Shown here one piece after another: positions 54,682 through 61,130 of a DNA stretch of 64,000 bases. A model generated the notes under the pieces. It was not told the origin of the DNA. It did not search any database and was given only the letters and a program-made list of their open reading frames with translations. Numbering within the stretch: the stretch's first letter is position 1; each line of letters opens with the position of its first letter. The stretch covers positions 372,001 through 436,000 of the forward strand of contig NZ_JAVJQO010000006.1 of NCBI RefSeq assembly GCF_040218225.1, read 5' to 3'. The DNA is from Gracilimonas sp. (GTDB taxonomy: Bacteria > Bacteroidota > Rhodothermia > Balneolales > Balneolaceae). The position numbers and the translations under genes were made by a program.

Positions 54682-54723
54682 ACCAAGAAAAAATGAGAAA
54701 AAATCATTACGTTTTCTCTTGGT
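54682..54723. repeat. Imperfect inverted repeat between uvrA and the SEFIR-APAZ gene
   Basis: ACCAAGAAAA at 54682-54691 and TTTTCTCTTGGT at 54712-54723 form a stem of about 10 pairs with one interior bulge and a ~20-nt AT-rich loop. It lies at the junction where the AT-rich pair begins and may be a uvrA terminator or the leader of the defence genes. Confidence 0.5.
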
Positions 54724-54730
54724 GATCTAT

Positions 54731-56158
54731 ATGAATAAACTCAACCATCTTACAGTTTTTATTGCTTACTCACATGATGATGAACTGCATAAGAAGCAAG
54801 CTCTAAAATTATCCAATCAATTACGTACTGATGGCATAAACTGTACTATTGATCAATATGTTACAGACCCAATAGAAGGGTGGCCGAGATGGATGATCAA
54901 TAATATCAGAAATTCTGACCATGTGCTCCTAATTTGCACCAAAAAATACTATAAAAAGGTATTTGATGATAATGCCGGCAAGGGTGCTAAATGGGAAAGT
55001 CAATTAATTTATGGAGAGCTTTATCAAAAAATTGAAGGAACAAAAAAATTTAAACCAATAATATTTCGAGATGAAGATTCACAGTGGATTCCCGAAATTT
55101 TAGATCAAAAAACACATTACCAATTCCCTAGAGACTATGAAAAGCTTTATCGTGAACTAACCGACCAACCTATTATAAAAAAGCCAAAGCTAGGTTCTTT
55201 AAAAGAATTCGACGACAAACAAGATAAAATTGAACCTAAAGCAGCTGTTTCTGATGGCCTCCCAAAAAACATTGACGAGAATGACTACCAATTCTTTTTA
55301 GAGTTGAGCAGTGACTTTCAACCTCCAGATAAGAAAGAAACAGTAATTTCAAATTTACTACAAATAAAAAACTTTCCTCAGACTTTCTATTTAGCAGATA
55401 CCAATATTAGAAGCTTGAATCATCTTTGGAAAGAACTGGAAAAGATTAATTCAAAAAGTAGCCAAGTTTTTTTATTAAAAGATAAGAAGATATACAGCTT
55501 TAATGATTTAAGAGATACTCCATGGGATAAATTATGTGACCCAGGAACATGCGATAGAATTTATACAAATAATTGGTTGTTCGGAGAAAACTCAGATAAC
55601 AGAAATAAACTATTTGAACTTTTCTATTTGGCTCTTAAAGAGCAATTATATACGAATTATAGAATCAAATATGATGCGTATTTAGACCTCTATTATTTCA
55701 ATTCGATTCCAAATAAGGATGAACGTATAATAAAGTATAACAGCCTAAAGGGAAAAGACACTCCTGTGACTGTTGTTAATAAGCTAAAAGAGAAAGACGG
55801 GCAAAAGTACTTGCGGCACCATGCTTTTGAAACAAAATTCATAAAATACATCGATAAGTTTTTTTTAGAAATAAACCCAACTTACTATTTCAGTATTGAT
55901 GGCAAAAAAACTGATAAGTTTCATGAAGACAAGCTAAAGAAGATAAAAGAAATTGATAAACACGTTGCTGTAAGAAACCAATTATTATTATGGGAAGATG
56001 TCTTAAATAGAACTGTAATAAAAAAAGAAAAAGATTTCTTTAGTTTTGGAAACTTAAATCGCTACAAAACTAATAAAGGAATTGTCGATAAAATTTGGAG
56101 AAAGACAAAACCAAAATCGAATATCCCCTCTGAACAGATAGATATTTTTTCTCCATGA
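54731..56158 (+). CDS. SEFIR (TIR-like) - APAZ effector subunit of a short-Argonaute system
   Basis: A 475-residue protein (ATG at 54731; a TTG at 54719 is also in frame). Residues ~6-150 are a SEFIR domain, the TIR relative seen in bacterial defence proteins: VFIAYSHDDELHK, GINCTIDQYVTDPIEGWPRWM, SDHVLLICTKKYYKKV and the putative catalytic GAKWESQL region (E89). Residues ~200-475 match the APAZ pattern: FYLADTNI, a CDPGTCDRI region, YLRHHAF (361-366), INPTYYFSIDG, AVRNQLLLWEDVLNRT. It stops overlapping the Argonaute start by ATGA. Function inferred: NAD depletion on target recognition. Strongly AT-rich. Confidence 0.78.
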   Translation: MNKLNHLTVFIAYSHDDELHKKQALKLSNQLRTDGINCTIDQYVTDPIEGWPRWMINNIRNSDHVLLICTKKYYKKVFDDNAGKGAKWESQLIYGELYQKIEGTKKFKPIIFRDEDSQWIPEILDQKTHYQFPRDYEKLYRELTDQPIIKKPKLGSLKEFDDKQDKIEPKAAVSDGLPKNIDENDYQFFLELSSDFQPPDKKETVISNLLQIKNFPQTFYLADTNIRSLNHLWKELEKINSKSSQVFLLKDKKIYSFNDLRDTPWDKLCDPGTCDRIYTNNWLFGENSDNRNKLFELFYLALKEQLYTNYRIKYDAYLDLYYFNSIPNKDERIIKYNSLKGKDTPVTVVNKLKEKDGQKYLRHHAFETKFIKYIDKFFLEINPTYYFSIDGKKTDKFHEDKLKKIKEIDKHVAVRNQLLLWEDVLNRTVIKKEKDFFSFGNLNRYKTNKGIVDKIWRKTKPKSNIPSEQIDIFSP

Positions 56159-57567
56159 ATAAACTAACAGTAATCAGGGAGCCCTTACTCGAGTTTCATG
56201 AGAATAAACATGTCGATATAAAATTTGGATTATCTAAATTTGGTCCTTTTGACAAATCATATAGCCAAAACAAGATTATAAAAGTTGGTATTGTTGGAAC
56301 AAGCCATACTATAGACAACATGAGAAAATGGCTTGAAAAACTTAATTCTAAAATCCCATCTAAAAAAGATAACAAGATACTGCACCCCCCTTTTCCTGGT
56401 TTAGAAACAAACCCAGAATTAAATACCAAAATTTCAATTAATTCTAAATATGAAAAAGTTTTAAATCCAGTCGAGCTACAAAAAGCATTAAATCATAATA
56501 ATCATGACATAGTAGCTAAGGATACAGCAACACTATTTAAGAAAACTATCGAAAGTTTATTAGCTAAAACATCAGTTGATTTAATAATTTGCTGTCCTTC
56601 TGAAGAAGTTTATAAAAAGCTTAGAATTGAGAACCCAAAAAACCTAAAGCAAGAAACTTTAGCTGTAGATTTTCACGATCTTTTAAAAGCGAAGTCATTA
56701 GAATTCAATATTCCCACACAATTAATGTGGCCTTGGACTTATACAGAGAGCTTAAGTCCTCCATCTAAAAGTTCCATAAGTTTACAATCAGAATCGACGA
56801 GAGCTTGGAATTTCTATATAGCAACCTATTACAAAACATCAGGTATTCCGTGGAGAATGACCCGTGATCCCGAAGTACCAACAACTTGTTATGTTGGTAT
56901 TAGTTTTTTCCACAATATTAAAAAAACTAAAGTCTCATCGAGTATCGCTCAAGTTTTCAATGAAAAAGGAGAAGGTATAATAATGAGAGGAGAGCCAGTC
57001 AAAATAAATAAAAATGACAAGCAGGTTAATCTCTCTGAAAAAGATGCCTTTAAACTTCTTGATAATGCATTAACTACTTATAAGGATGAGCATTTTAATT
57101 TTCCTGCAAGAGTTGTACTACATAAAAGTAGTGCCTTTAATGAAAATGAATTAAAAGGATTTAAGAGAGTTTTAAAAAAATACTATATAGAATTCTACGA
57201 TTTCCTAAGCATTAGAAGAAGTTCAACTAAATTATTCCGTGAAGGTTATTACGTGCCATTGCGTGGGTCATTTTTACAATTGGACAACAAAAACATGATC
57301 CTCTACACAAGAGGTAGCATAAACCTATACCAAGAATATCCCGGTATGTATATTCCAAAGCCTCTTCATATTCAGTTATTTGAAACACAGAACTCACCTC
57401 TATCATTAGCTACTGAAATACTTGAATTATCAAAGATGAACTATAATAATTCTCAATTTAGTGAATCAATGCCTATTACATTAAGAACTTCTAGAAATGT
57501 TGGGGCTATCATAAAGTATATAACTAAAGGTGGGTATTTACCTCCCAGTTATAGATTTTATATGTAA
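56155..57567 (+). CDS. Short prokaryotic Argonaute (MID-PIWI, catalytically inactive)
   Basis: A 470-residue protein of the size of short pAgos, without N/PAZ domains. MID is about residues 40-230 (nucleotide-binding VDLIICCPSEEVYKKL, TQLMWPWTYTES, TRAWNFYIATYYKTSG), PIWI about 240-470. Where active Argonautes carry catalytic Asp residues, this has VGIS (S250) and VVLHKSS (325-326), so the slicer tetrad is gone, as in short pAgos. The C-terminus LRTSRNVGAIIKYI...YRFYM is typical. It would load a guide and pair with the APAZ protein encoded 4 nt upstream. Start MNKL is identical to the partner's. Confidence 0.82.
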   Translation: MNKLTVIREPLLEFHENKHVDIKFGLSKFGPFDKSYSQNKIIKVGIVGTSHTIDNMRKWLEKLNSKIPSKKDNKILHPPFPGLETNPELNTKISINSKYEKVLNPVELQKALNHNNHDIVAKDTATLFKKTIESLLAKTSVDLIICCPSEEVYKKLRIENPKNLKQETLAVDFHDLLKAKSLEFNIPTQLMWPWTYTESLSPPSKSSISLQSESTRAWNFYIATYYKTSGIPWRMTRDPEVPTTCYVGISFFHNIKKTKVSSSIAQVFNEKGEGIIMRGEPVKINKNDKQVNLSEKDAFKLLDNALTTYKDEHFNFPARVVLHKSSAFNENELKGFKRVLKKYYIEFYDFLSIRRSSTKLFREGYYVPLRGSFLQLDNKNMILYTRGSINLYQEYPGMYIPKPLHIQLFETQNSPLSLATEILELSKMNYNNSQFSESMPITLRTSRNVGAIIKYITKGGYLPPSYRFYM

Positions 57568-57660: not shown

Positions 57661-58215
57661 ATGAATTTCTTCAGAACACATATCACACGAACGCTTAGCG
57701 TTGGCCTGTTGCTTGCCGGAATGGTTTTCTATTTCATGAAGCCGGTAAGTGATAATGCCGACCATGATGCGTTCACTTCTTGGCTGCAATCGAATTTAAA
57801 GTCTAATGGCAATACTTCGGTTGTAGATCAGCTTAAAGAACTTTCTGCCAGTCCTGATGAACTCGAATCTGTTATTCGTCAGGCCTCTGCTTTAGTGAAA
57901 GCACATGCTGATGATTTTGAATTACCGGTTGATGCGCAATCCAAAGACGAAAGTGAAGTATTTCAGGTTTTACTCAAAGAATGGAATGCATATCAGAATT
58001 CGTCTTCAGGGATGGGTAAAGCTGTTCTTATTAAACAAGCCCAACCTCACTCTGTTTTACCTGTTGATGGATTAGCCTTTTATGGAAAGGCTGATGCAAC
58101 ACAACAAACATTTATAATTTCTTCTTCGGGGAAAAGTTTTGAACATCAGTCTGTCACATTACACAACTTTCACATTTCTCCCCTTTCCGGTGGTACCGCC
58201 ATTGGTGCGCCATAG
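57661..58215 (+). CDS. Small exported protein of unknown function upstream of secDF
   Basis: A 184-residue protein with an N-terminal hydrophobic segment (RTLSVGLLLAGMVFYFM) that can be a signal anchor, a helical central part (VIRQASALVKAHADDFELPVDA; FQVLLKEWNAYQN) and a C-terminal tail ending ISPLSGGTAIGAP. No family recognised. The position directly before secD, the size and the Gly/Ala/Pro-rich end fit a translation-arrest secretion monitor (SecM/VemP/ApdP-like), but no known arrest motif such as RAPG/RAPP is present. It could equally be an unrelated envelope protein. A 148-nt spacer with an inverted repeat follows. Confidence 0.6.
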   Translation: MNFFRTHITRTLSVGLLLAGMVFYFMKPVSDNADHDAFTSWLQSNLKSNGNTSVVDQLKELSASPDELESVIRQASALVKAHADDFELPVDAQSKDESEVFQVLLKEWNAYQNSSSGMGKAVLIKQAQPHSVLPVDGLAFYGKADATQQTFIISSSGKSFEHQSVTLHNFHISPLSGGTAIGAP

Positions 58216-58255
58216 ACTCTCTTATCCTTTTTACATAAACACTTTCCAAACTTAC

Positions 58256-58318
58256 AGATAGTTGAAGGTTGGCAGGATGATGGTTGGTAATTTTGTATCA
58301 ATCACTCTGTCAACTATC
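58256..58318. repeat. Inverted repeat in the secDF leader
   Basis: GATAGTTGA (58256-58264) and TCAACTATC (58310-58318) are exact inverted repeats 45 nt apart, in the 148-nt spacer between the small exported protein and secD. It could fold into a leader structure; the secD start at 58364 has no clear Shine-Dalgarno. Confidence 0.5.
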
Positions 58319-58363
58319 AATATCTCATCTTTCAATTTTTCAAACTTCTAAATAACAAATAAC

Positions 58364-60178
58364 ATGCAAGGAAACGGATTTAAAATCGGTTGTATCGTGG
58401 CTTTTCTGGCCCTTACAATTTATTACCTCTACCCAACAGTAGTCTGGTCGTTAGAACAAAATTATATGGAAGAGCTCAGTCCTTCTGAACGGGCTCAATA
58501 TCAGGAAGAAGAACAGCAAAAGCTGGAAGATCTTCGCACAAGAACCCTTTCTCTGGGTCTTGACCTTCAGGGTGGTATGCACGTAACTCTTGAAGTTGGT
58601 GTCCCCCAATTGATCAGAGAGCTAGCTGGCGAAAACGCCGATCAGCTTCTGAACGACGTTATTGATGTGGCTGCTGAAAGGTCGCTCGAAAACGACTCAG
58701 ACTTTATCAATGAGATGGTTGCAGAATTCGAATCTCGAGATCCGGATGCCCGACTTAGCAGATATTACCGAAATGATGCGATGGATATCACACGCCGTTC
58801 TTCTAATGAAGAAATCGCAACTTTTTTAAAAACACAGCGGCAGTCAGCTCTTGACCGGGCCATCGAAATTATTCGTACCCGTGTTGACCGTTATGGTGTA
58901 ACTGAGCCTTCTATTGTGAAGCAGGGAAATAACCGAATCGTAGTTGAGCTTCCGGGTGTGGAAGACAAAGAACGAGTTCGTAGTCTTCTGAAAGGAACTG
59001 CACGACTTGAATTCCGTCTGGCTGCAGATGCCCAGGAGTTCCGTGCTTTTGTAAACTCAGTTTATGAATATTATGACAACTACAGCCAAAGTGCCGACAC
59101 AGCCGATACCGCTGCTGCCAACCAGTTCAATCCGTTGGAAGAAGTCTTGGTACCAGCTCAAAGTCCTTATTTGGTTGGTTACGCAACTCCGGATGATACC
59201 TCCCGGGTTATGGATCTTCTCACAACCGAAGAAGTACAGCGCATACTGCCCAGAAGCACCACAATGATGTGGAGCGCTAATCCTTTTCAGGGACAAGGCG
59301 GTTCTGAGCTTTATCAACTGATTGGTGTTCGTACACAAATCGAGCTTACCGGCGATGTGATTGAAGCCGCAACGGTTCAATTTGACCCCGCTACCAACGT
59401 ACCGGAAGTTTCTATGACCATGAATAGTGAAGGTGCCCGTAAATGGGGCAGAATTACTGGTGCAAACATTGGTAAACCAGTAGCTATCGTATTGGATGGG
59501 TTTGTATTCTCTTATCCAAACGTGCAGACTAAAATCTCAAACGGTCGTTCATCCATCACCGGATTAGATGGAGTTGAAGAAGCCGAGGATTTGGTCAACA
59601 TTTTGCTTTCAGGTGCCCTTCCTGCGCCACTTGAAATCCTTGAGGAACGTACCGTAGGTGCAACCCTTGGGGCAGAATCTATTCAGGCCGGTTTAAATTC
59701 AATCCTGTTTGGATTAGGTGTAGTAGCCATTTTCATGATTATCTATTACCGAACCGGTGGTGGAATTGCTGATCTGGCACTTCTGCTTAACATCATTTTC
59801 ATCCTGGGTATCCTGGCTGCTTTCAAAGCCACGCTCACACTGCCTGGTATCGCAGGTATTGTATTAACGATTGGTATGGCGGTAGATGCCAACGTACTGA
59901 TTTTTGACCGTATCCGTGAAGAACAGCGAACCGGTAAAACGCTCAAGGCCTCCATTGAAGCAGGTTATGCGAATGCGATGAGTGCGATTGTTGATGCAAA
60001 CGTAACCACCTTCTTCGTGGCTATCATTCTCTTCAGTTTTGGAGTTGGCCCGATCAAAGGTTTCGCGGTTACACTGATGGCCGGTATTGTAGCATCACTG
60101 TTTAGTGCTATTGTAATTACACGGGTAGTTGTTGATTACCTGACACAAGCCAAGAAAGCTAGTGTAAGCTTCGGTTAA
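58364..60178 (+). CDS. secD: Protein translocase subunit SecD
   Basis: A 604-residue SecD of the RND family: N-terminal membrane helix, P1 periplasmic domain starting TLSLGLDLQGGMHVTLEV, DRYGVTEPSIVKQGNNRIVVELPG, and five C-terminal helices with ILEERTVGATLGAESIQ and the GMAVDANVLIFDRIREE proton-path motif. It drives late steps of Sec export, with SecF encoded 40 nt downstream. Confidence 0.96.
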   Translation: MQGNGFKIGCIVAFLALTIYYLYPTVVWSLEQNYMEELSPSERAQYQEEEQQKLEDLRTRTLSLGLDLQGGMHVTLEVGVPQLIRELAGENADQLLNDVIDVAAERSLENDSDFINEMVAEFESRDPDARLSRYYRNDAMDITRRSSNEEIATFLKTQRQSALDRAIEIIRTRVDRYGVTEPSIVKQGNNRIVVELPGVEDKERVRSLLKGTARLEFRLAADAQEFRAFVNSVYEYYDNYSQSADTADTAAANQFNPLEEVLVPAQSPYLVGYATPDDTSRVMDLLTTEEVQRILPRSTTMMWSANPFQGQGGSELYQLIGVRTQIELTGDVIEAATVQFDPATNVPEVSMTMNSEGARKWGRITGANIGKPVAIVLDGFVFSYPNVQTKISNGRSSITGLDGVEEAEDLVNILLSGALPAPLEILEERTVGATLGAESIQAGLNSILFGLGVVAIFMIIYYRTGGGIADLALLLNIIFILGILAAFKATLTLPGIAGIVLTIGMAVDANVLIFDRIREEQRTGKTLKASIEAGYANAMSAIVDANVTTFFVAIILFSFGVGPIKGFAVTLMAGIVASLFSAIVITRVVVDYLTQAKKASVSFG

Positions 60179-60218: not shown

Positions 60219-61130
60219 ATGAGATGGTTTGAAACCCCTAATTTTGACTTCAACGGAGCACGGAAGATGGCTTACATCTTCTCAGCTATCCTGTTTTTGG
60301 TTTCGGTTGGAGCAATTCTAACAAAAGGACTCCAGTACGGTATCGACTTTAAAGGCGGTAAGGAGTTTGTGCTGGATTTTGAAAATCCGGTAAGTGTAGT
60401 AGATATGAGATCTGATCTCTCTGAACCCCTCGGGGCTACACCTGAACTGAAACTATTCGGTTCTGAAAGTGAAATCCTGATTCGTACCGACAATGAGCGG
60501 CCCATCAATGAGGTACAACAAATTATCACCTCTTCGATGACTGAGCTGTACCCAGATAATCCATTTACGGTGATCAAAACCGACGTGGTAGGCCCGAGAT
60601 TTGCCGAAGACCTTAAGTCAGGTGCATTGCAGGCTATCATTTACGCTATCGTGATTATCTTTATCTATATTCTCATTCGGTTTCGAAACTGGACGTTTTC
60701 GGCCGGGGCTGTAGCTGCATTGATACACGATGTGGTAATTGTACTGGGTATTTTTACCCTGCTGGCAGATTTAGTCCCATTCAGCCTTCAGGTTGATCAG
60801 GCAATTATTGCCGCCTTCCTCACCATTGTGGGTTATTCACTGAACGATACGGTAGTAGTATTTGACCGTATCCGTGAAAACTCCAACGTGCATAAAGGAA
60901 TGGATTTTATGCCGATGGTAAACAAAAGCCTGAACGATACCCTTAGCCGTACCGTGATAACTTCTATTACCACCTTGTTTGTGGTGACTGTGCTGTTTAT
61001 TTTCGGCGGTGAGGTGTTGAAAGGCTTTTCTTTTGCCCTCTTAATCGGTATTGTACTTGGTACATACAGTTCGCTATTTGTTGCCAGCTCTTTGGTGGTT
61101 GAACTCGAAGCACGTACAAAAAAATCTTAA
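60219..61130 (+). CDS. secF: Protein translocase subunit SecF
   Basis: A 303-residue SecF: N-terminal helix then GIDFKGGKEFVLDF, the VGPRFAEDLKSGALQAI helix start, the SLNDTVVVFDRIRENS motif and the NKSLNDTLSRTVITSITT end. It partners SecD in the membrane and uses the proton-motive force to help translocation. AGGA precedes the ATG. Confidence 0.96.
   Translation: MRWFETPNFDFNGARKMAYIFSAILFLVSVGAILTKGLQYGIDFKGGKEFVLDFENPVSVVDMRSDLSEPLGATPELKLFGSESEILIRTDNERPINEVQQIITSSMTELYPDNPFTVIKTDVVGPRFAEDLKSGALQAIIYAIVIIFIYILIRFRNWTFSAGAVAALIHDVVIVLGIFTLLADLVPFSLQVDQAIIAAFLTIVGYSLNDTVVVFDRIRENSNVHKGMDFMPMVNKSLNDTLSRTVITSITTLFVVTVLFIFGGEVLKGFSFALLIGIVLGTYSSLFVASSLVVELEARTKKS

Follow-up and report, generated by a model that had tools for sequence, protein, structure and literature searches.

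A candidate termination-arrest secretion monitor encoded upstream of secDF in Gracilimonas and its relatives

Within the 64,000-nucleotide stretch of Gracilimonas sp. DNA analysed here (the window), an open reading frame directly upstream of secD and secF (hereafter the uORF) very probably encodes a Sec-dependent monitoring substrate, which would arrest its own translation at termination and so exert feedback on secDF. Synteny with secD, conservation of the C-terminus at the level of the peptide, a preference for TAG as the stop codon and a hydrophobic N-terminal signal are all established here. An earlier note on this DNA had proposed a secretion monitor with the layout of SecM, VemP and ApdP. 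That proposal is well supported by the order-wide synteny, the conserved C-terminus and a published stalling class of the same layout. The likeness to SecM, VemP and ApdP holds for the exported or membrane-anchored product and for its position before Sec genes; the arrest, however, is probably at the stop codon, as in TnaC, rather than during elongation.

The uORF, secD and secF follow one another on one strand, with 148 nt between the uORF and secD (Table 1). The 184 codons of the uORF open with a hydrophobic segment and close with GGTAIGAP-TAG, so that the translation confirms the Gly/Ala/Pro-rich end at the very stop described earlier; the placement directly before secD-secF was likewise correct, as both genes match their Pfam families. 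The description of the product as a 184-residue protein of no recognised family also holds, in that it reached the cut-off of no Pfam family, gave no PADLOC hit and found no good match in NCBIfam. Because the SecD P1-head family has a single match in this genome, the secDF genes are the only copy found here, and not a secondary copy such as the secDF2 that VemP, ApdA and ApdP precede.

Table 1. Features of the uORF-secDF locus in window coordinates, and of the paralogous uORFs in the coordinates of their own loci
Feature	Position	Strand	Basis or remark
uORF for the 184-aa arrest-peptide candidate	57661..58215	+	stop TAG 58213-58215; homologues found
N-terminal export signal or signal anchor, residues 1-28 (M-N-F-F-R-T-H-I, then hydrophobic)	57661..57744	+	sequence, conservation, model
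Small helical domain (predicted), residues 30-113; W41 and W108 conserved	57748..57999	+	AlphaFold2, conservation
Variable tail, predicted disordered, residues 119-173	58015..58179	+	pLDDT, low conservation
Candidate C-terminal arrest motif PLSGGTAIGAP, residues 174-184	58180..58212	+	near-invariant in 57 members, synonymous codons free
TAG stop, inferred to occupy the A site during the stall	58213..58215	+	TAG preference in the family
41-nt G-less, pyrimidine-rich tract immediately 3' of the stop; may load Rho (rut-like)	58216..58256	+	sequence, family bias
Stem-loop, 9-bp arms 58257-58265 (GATAGTTGA) and 58310-58318 (TCAACTATC)	58257..58318	+	inverted repeat; family mid-spacer structure
secD leader, G-poor, A/T-rich, without Shine-Dalgarno	58334..58363	+	sequence composition
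secD, presumed regulated gene	58364..60178	+	Pfam match; single SecD P1-head match in genome
secF	60219..61130	+	Pfam match
Paralogous uORF, [AS]INAP-TAG end	L156:1798-2268	+	before PF00144, not secD
Paralogous uORF, [AS]INAP-TAG end	L155:3628-4086	-	before PF00144, not secD
Paralogous uORF, [AS]INAP-TAG end	L167:1492-1941	+	before PF00144, not secD
Paralogous uORF, [AS]INAP-TAG end	L181:1498-1956	-	before PF00144, not secD

On the 5' side, between uvrA and the uORF (54719-57567 of the window), lie a gene for a SEFIR-domain protein with a short-Argonaute accessory region and then one for a short prokaryotic Argonaute, matched by PADLOC as bSEFIR (1.5e-50) and pAgo_I (1.3e-158). In both of the closest relatives only 63 nt separate the end of uvrA from the uORF, with no such pair between them, and the pair therefore looks like an insertion.

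An AlphaFold2 model of the uORF protein, built on 18 sequences and of modest quality (mean pLDDT 62), has helices at residues 3-26, 30-44, 52-62, 68-81 and 97-113, followed by disorder to the C-terminus. The first of these is a hydrophobic helix after a basic N-terminus, in agreement with the export signal proposed earlier, and R5, H7 and G20 are conserved in this region. The predicted helical domain has a pLDDT of mostly 70-82, while that of residues 119-174 stays below 50. About 156 residues separate the signal from the C-terminus, where the published class uDF_NAP-stop, discussed below, calls for more than 30. A helical domain outside the tunnel, with some 70 unstructured residues behind it, would be suited to force-driven release. 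As the body of the protein is moderately conserved too, it may have a second role besides arrest.

Homology searching recovered the protein in 45 of 57 relatives. A profile search of 244 genomes of the class matched 111, all in the same order except for one weak hit. In every locus of the order whose downstream gene was read, that gene was secD, at a distance of 77-418 nt, and identity in the body of the protein falls to about 25% among homologues. Three genomes of the order that were missed by the profile still have a secD uORF, with the ends GVVIGAP, PIRIGAP and GQSVNAP. Other orders of the class have secD uORFs as well, mostly of about 180 aa and ending in [LMRQ]GP or PRAP, and a uORF ending [GA]P-stop before secD is thereby class-wide. 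Their N-terminal halves align with that of the window family at the profile level (hhalign E=2.6e-6, columns 1-93, probability 89%), which makes it probable that the class inherited the secD uORF from its common ancestor. The uORF is dispensable, since it is missing from some small genomes of the order, and has been lost in at least one of them (G023), where uvrA directly precedes secD. The search returned no plasmid homologues. Two loci of the same class (L139 and L141) have uORFs of only 87 and 74 aa before secD, with ends PLGP/PQGP-TAG and tentative start assignments.

If the C-terminus were the functional part of the protein, as the earlier note supposed, its last 15 or so residues should be the most conserved, and this is what we found. 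Across 52 aligned full-length members, residues 174-184 carry a mean of 3.0 bits per column and the last five 3.5 bits, against about 1.5-1.8 in the body and 0.6-0.75 in residues 141-173. In the 57 members of the order these last 11 residues are near-invariant and follow the motif P-x3-G-[TIV]-[AS]-I-[GN]-A-P-stop. All 57 end in A-P, and position -3 is Gly in 27 (the window among them), Asn in 29 and His in one. The invariant Pro at -1 and Ala at -2 use all four synonymous codons across members, so that, judged by codon usage, selection at the motif is on the peptide and not on the RNA. Scanned as a DNA pattern in 54 genomes, the motif with its stop gave 32 sites, about one to a genome, and the secD uORF accounts for 30 of these, whereas the reversed control pattern gave three sites. 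Compared across homologues in this way, the C-terminal conservation is far beyond chance. Motifs of the RAPP, RAGP or RAPG type are absent from the window protein, as had been noted for RAPG and RAPP, and also from the C-terminal ends of homologues within the order.

The conservation extends to the stop codon, which is TAG in 50 members, TAA in five and TGA in two. The background, 263 other genes called by a crude longest-ORF gene finder in the window and in twenty related regions of up to about 19 kb, has 31% TAG (p=1e-18). Since related sequences are not independent, we also allowed one vote per genus in a tally made by hand, with TAG in 22 of 26 genera (p=3e-8). The GC-richer other orders of the class agree, with TAG in 9/11 uORFs against 24% of neighbouring genes (p=8e-5). 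A neutral stop would have drifted, given the saturated synonymous positions next to it, so the simplest reading is that the stop codon has a role in the arrest. TAG is decoded by release factor 1 only. Arrest would then probably take place at termination, with the P site occupied by proline and the A site by the stop, rather than at a sense codon of the RAPP type.

Arrest of this kind has been described in the same phylum. Screening more than 30,000 genomes, Fujiwara et al. 2024 defined uDF_NAP-stop, 396 uORF sequences located before secDF in three orders of Bacteroidota and sharing a terminal proline (PMC10987492); the main text, as available to us, leaves the three orders unnamed. A representative was found as peptidyl-tRNA at 30-50% in the E. 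coli PURE system and more than 50% in that of B. subtilis. Its arrest needs the stop codon and depends on positions -3 and -1, the former (Asn in the motif name) being sensitive to alanine substitution in the tested peptide, and the toeprint places the stop in the A site (PMC10987492). In the literature searched, no other paper uses the name uDF_NAP-stop. The window lineage (Balneolaceae, Balneolales) belongs to Bacteroidota in GTDB, and its relatives may already figure among the published sequences.

The window gene resembles this class as a small uORF upstream of secDF with an N-terminal localization signal, a conserved proline as its last residue and a presumed arrest while the stop occupies the A site. 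Many members of its order end in NAP; unlike the class, it ends in GAP, together with about half of the order. It fits uDF_NAP-stop in every tested feature except the Gly at -3. This residue does not exclude membership, because the published family is grouped by the shared terminal proline. In other classes of the phylum with a fused SecDF (families f39, f40 and f49), the uORF ends in NAP, QAP, KGP or QGP, is shorter (97-124 aa) and has no TAG preference (2/8). Before the fused SecDF of family f31, two uORFs (L123:1680-2288 and L126:1782-2399) end in EVRAGPTS or EVRAGPVC and look like the RAGP type published as uDF_RQH_Flavobacteriales.

Two further published classes, uA_NSP-stop of Sphingobacteriaceae and uDF_DGMK-stop of Clostridia, also arrest at the stop with a Sec gene downstream, but have other motifs, the former preceding secA and the latter belonging to another phylum (PMC10987492). 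TnaC of Escherichia coli has the same geometry, with its last proline in the P site, the stop in the A site and the release factor blocked (PMC8429421), although it is a 24-aa cytosolic peptide that needs free Trp, uses UGA and RF2 rather than UAG, and is no Sec substrate. Stop-codon arrest is also known for CliM of C. difficile, at Phe-stop (PMC13183943). In both TnaC and CliM the release factor can bind but its GGQ loop cannot be placed (PMC8429421, PMC13183943), and by analogy release factor 1 would be blocked by the window peptide. SecM, VemP, ApdA and ApdP are, like the window protein, exported or membrane-anchored monitors encoded before the gene of a Sec component (secDF for the last three). 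They differ in arresting elongation on internal sense codons, and SecM, ApdA and ApdP carry RAGP or RAPP, of which the window peptide has neither.

For this very peptide we infer arrest, release by force and induction of secDF, along the following lines. The N-terminal signal would bring the nascent chain to the Sec translocon. At the end of translation P-x3-G-x-A-I-G-A-P would occupy the peptidyl-transferase centre and the exit tunnel; the P site would hold prolyl-tRNA and the A site UAG, and release factor 1 would be unable to hydrolyse the peptide. When export is fast, pulling, perhaps with the aid of the small helical domain after its emergence, would break the arrest and the ribosome would depart. 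When export is slow, the ribosome would be held on the stop codon and expression of secD-secF would rise, closing the feedback loop.

The conserved C-terminus could also be read as a tag for function or sorting, carried by an ordinary periplasmic protein that acts alongside SecDF, as the conserved W41, W108, R5 and H7 and the predicted helical domain in the body might suggest. Such a tag explains neither the TAG preference nor the unconserved stretch right before the motif. Four paralogues without the W41 domain (see below) keep the same end and TAG, and the published relatives arrest in vitro (PMC10987492), all of which makes a tag improbable. As for a small hypothetical gene merely placed before secDF by chance, the want of Pfam, PADLOC or good NCBIfam matches is in keeping with it, but it is refuted by the order-wide synteny and the conservation of the end in homologues, and the probability that we leave to it is negligible.

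The arrest could be read out on secD in more than one way. In SecM and one uDF_RQH peptide the mechanism is start unmasking (PMC10987492); here, sequence after the stop would pair with the secD leader and hide the start, and a stalled ribosome would prevent the pairing. In a few members (L032, L017 and L003) sequence close to the stop is complementary to a stretch near the ATG, and a ribosome-dependent opening of about +0.20 is predicted in L032 and L040. We folded 43 spacers by constrained partition function, once free and once with the stop covered by a ribosome footprint, and compared them with dinucleotide shuffles. Without the ribosome, the secD start is already more open than in the shuffles (mean unpaired 0.65 vs 0.53, p=6e-7), and in these predicted folds the footprint leaves the 43-member mean at 0.65 (difference 0.00, p=0.77). 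In the window, the predicted values are 0.87 without and 0.89 with the footprint. A SecM-like hairpin masking the secD start is thus unsupported by the constrained folding, with no ribosome-dependent opening over the 43 members, and we consider start unmasking unlikely, although it may be a lineage-specific mechanism, given L032 and L040.

Across the 43 members, predicted structure in mid-spacer exceeds that of shuffles (p=5e-7). The perfect 9-bp inverted repeat reported by the earlier note in the 148-nt spacer is present, but the best spacer repeat reaches a p of only about 0.025 against shuffles, marginal when taken alone, and we dropped it as key evidence for regulation; among the five closest spacers that could be aligned, similarity is too high for covariation of the stem to be counted. 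It is also true that secD has no clear Shine-Dalgarno, but this carries no weight as a sign of regulation and was set aside, being normal here (an SD-like 4-mer precedes just 7/44 window genes). The spacer contained no intrinsic terminator and matched no known RNA family.

The read-out that we prefer, tentatively and short of calling it probable, is the masking of a Rho-loading site as in TnaC, which fits the sequence better than start unmasking does. After normal termination Rho would load behind the stop and end transcription before or within secD, whereas a stalled ribosome would cover the site. In the window, 41 G-free nucleotides come straight after the stop, and family-wide the first 20 nt are 66% pyrimidine against 54% in other genes (p=3e-5), with an excess of C over G in the first 20-25 nt (p=2e-4). 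Rho is encoded in this genome, and the P-stop geometry is that of TnaC, whose stop is immediately followed by a rut site (PMC8429421). Against this, the composition bias is moderate, a rut site is not provable from sequence, and the spacer has no intrinsic terminator either. Besides the main rho, the genome has a second, weaker match to the Rho RNA-binding domain in a 421-aa open frame (G000:C4:421532-421747).

Related leaders occur away from secDF. Four paralogous uORFs of 149-156 aa, from three genera, end in GISINAP, GIAINAP, SIAINAP and DIAINAP, each followed by TAG. They retain the N-terminal segment, together with an AVLxxQ-like stretch inside the protein, and are without the W41 helical part. 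All four lie 155-263 nt before the gene of a PF00144 lipoprotein (serine beta-lactamase fold), whose close homologues (E <1e-60) number only these four in 92 genomes of the family, every one with its uORF; one of the four hydrolase copies is frameshifted. On sequence comparison, the leader with its candidate arrest peptide seems to have found a second use, in front of a gene that does not belong to the export machinery. CutF offers a parallel: as a nascent chain bound for export it is reported to control an enzyme that is itself exported, but it senses copper and differs in sequence (mBio 2023, PMC9973294).

To the published main text on uDF_NAP-stop, this analysis adds that [GA]P-stop uORFs are class-wide, that TAG is preferred and that four paralogous leaders exist; the negative result for start masking in predicted folds is a further addition. 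The UAG preference gives a simple means of studying how release factors are blocked by nascent chains. More speculatively, and we regard the full combination as doubtful, a UAG (RF1)-dependent termination-arrest peptide would be a portable sensor, present class-wide before the only secDF, copied before a rare lipoprotein of the beta-lactamase fold and read out through Rho rather than by start unmasking. We know of no earlier case of a Sec monitor read out through Rho in the manner of TnaC, if this is what happens here, and if the idea is true, one arrest-peptide lineage would be regulating a gene outside the export machinery. The described picture of export-watching arrest peptides is one of patchy occurrence. 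In these bacteria one lineage persists throughout an order, and more loosely its class, before the only secDF, and it looks like core regulation there; its paralogues before a lipoprotein hydrolase indicate where such sensors may be reused.
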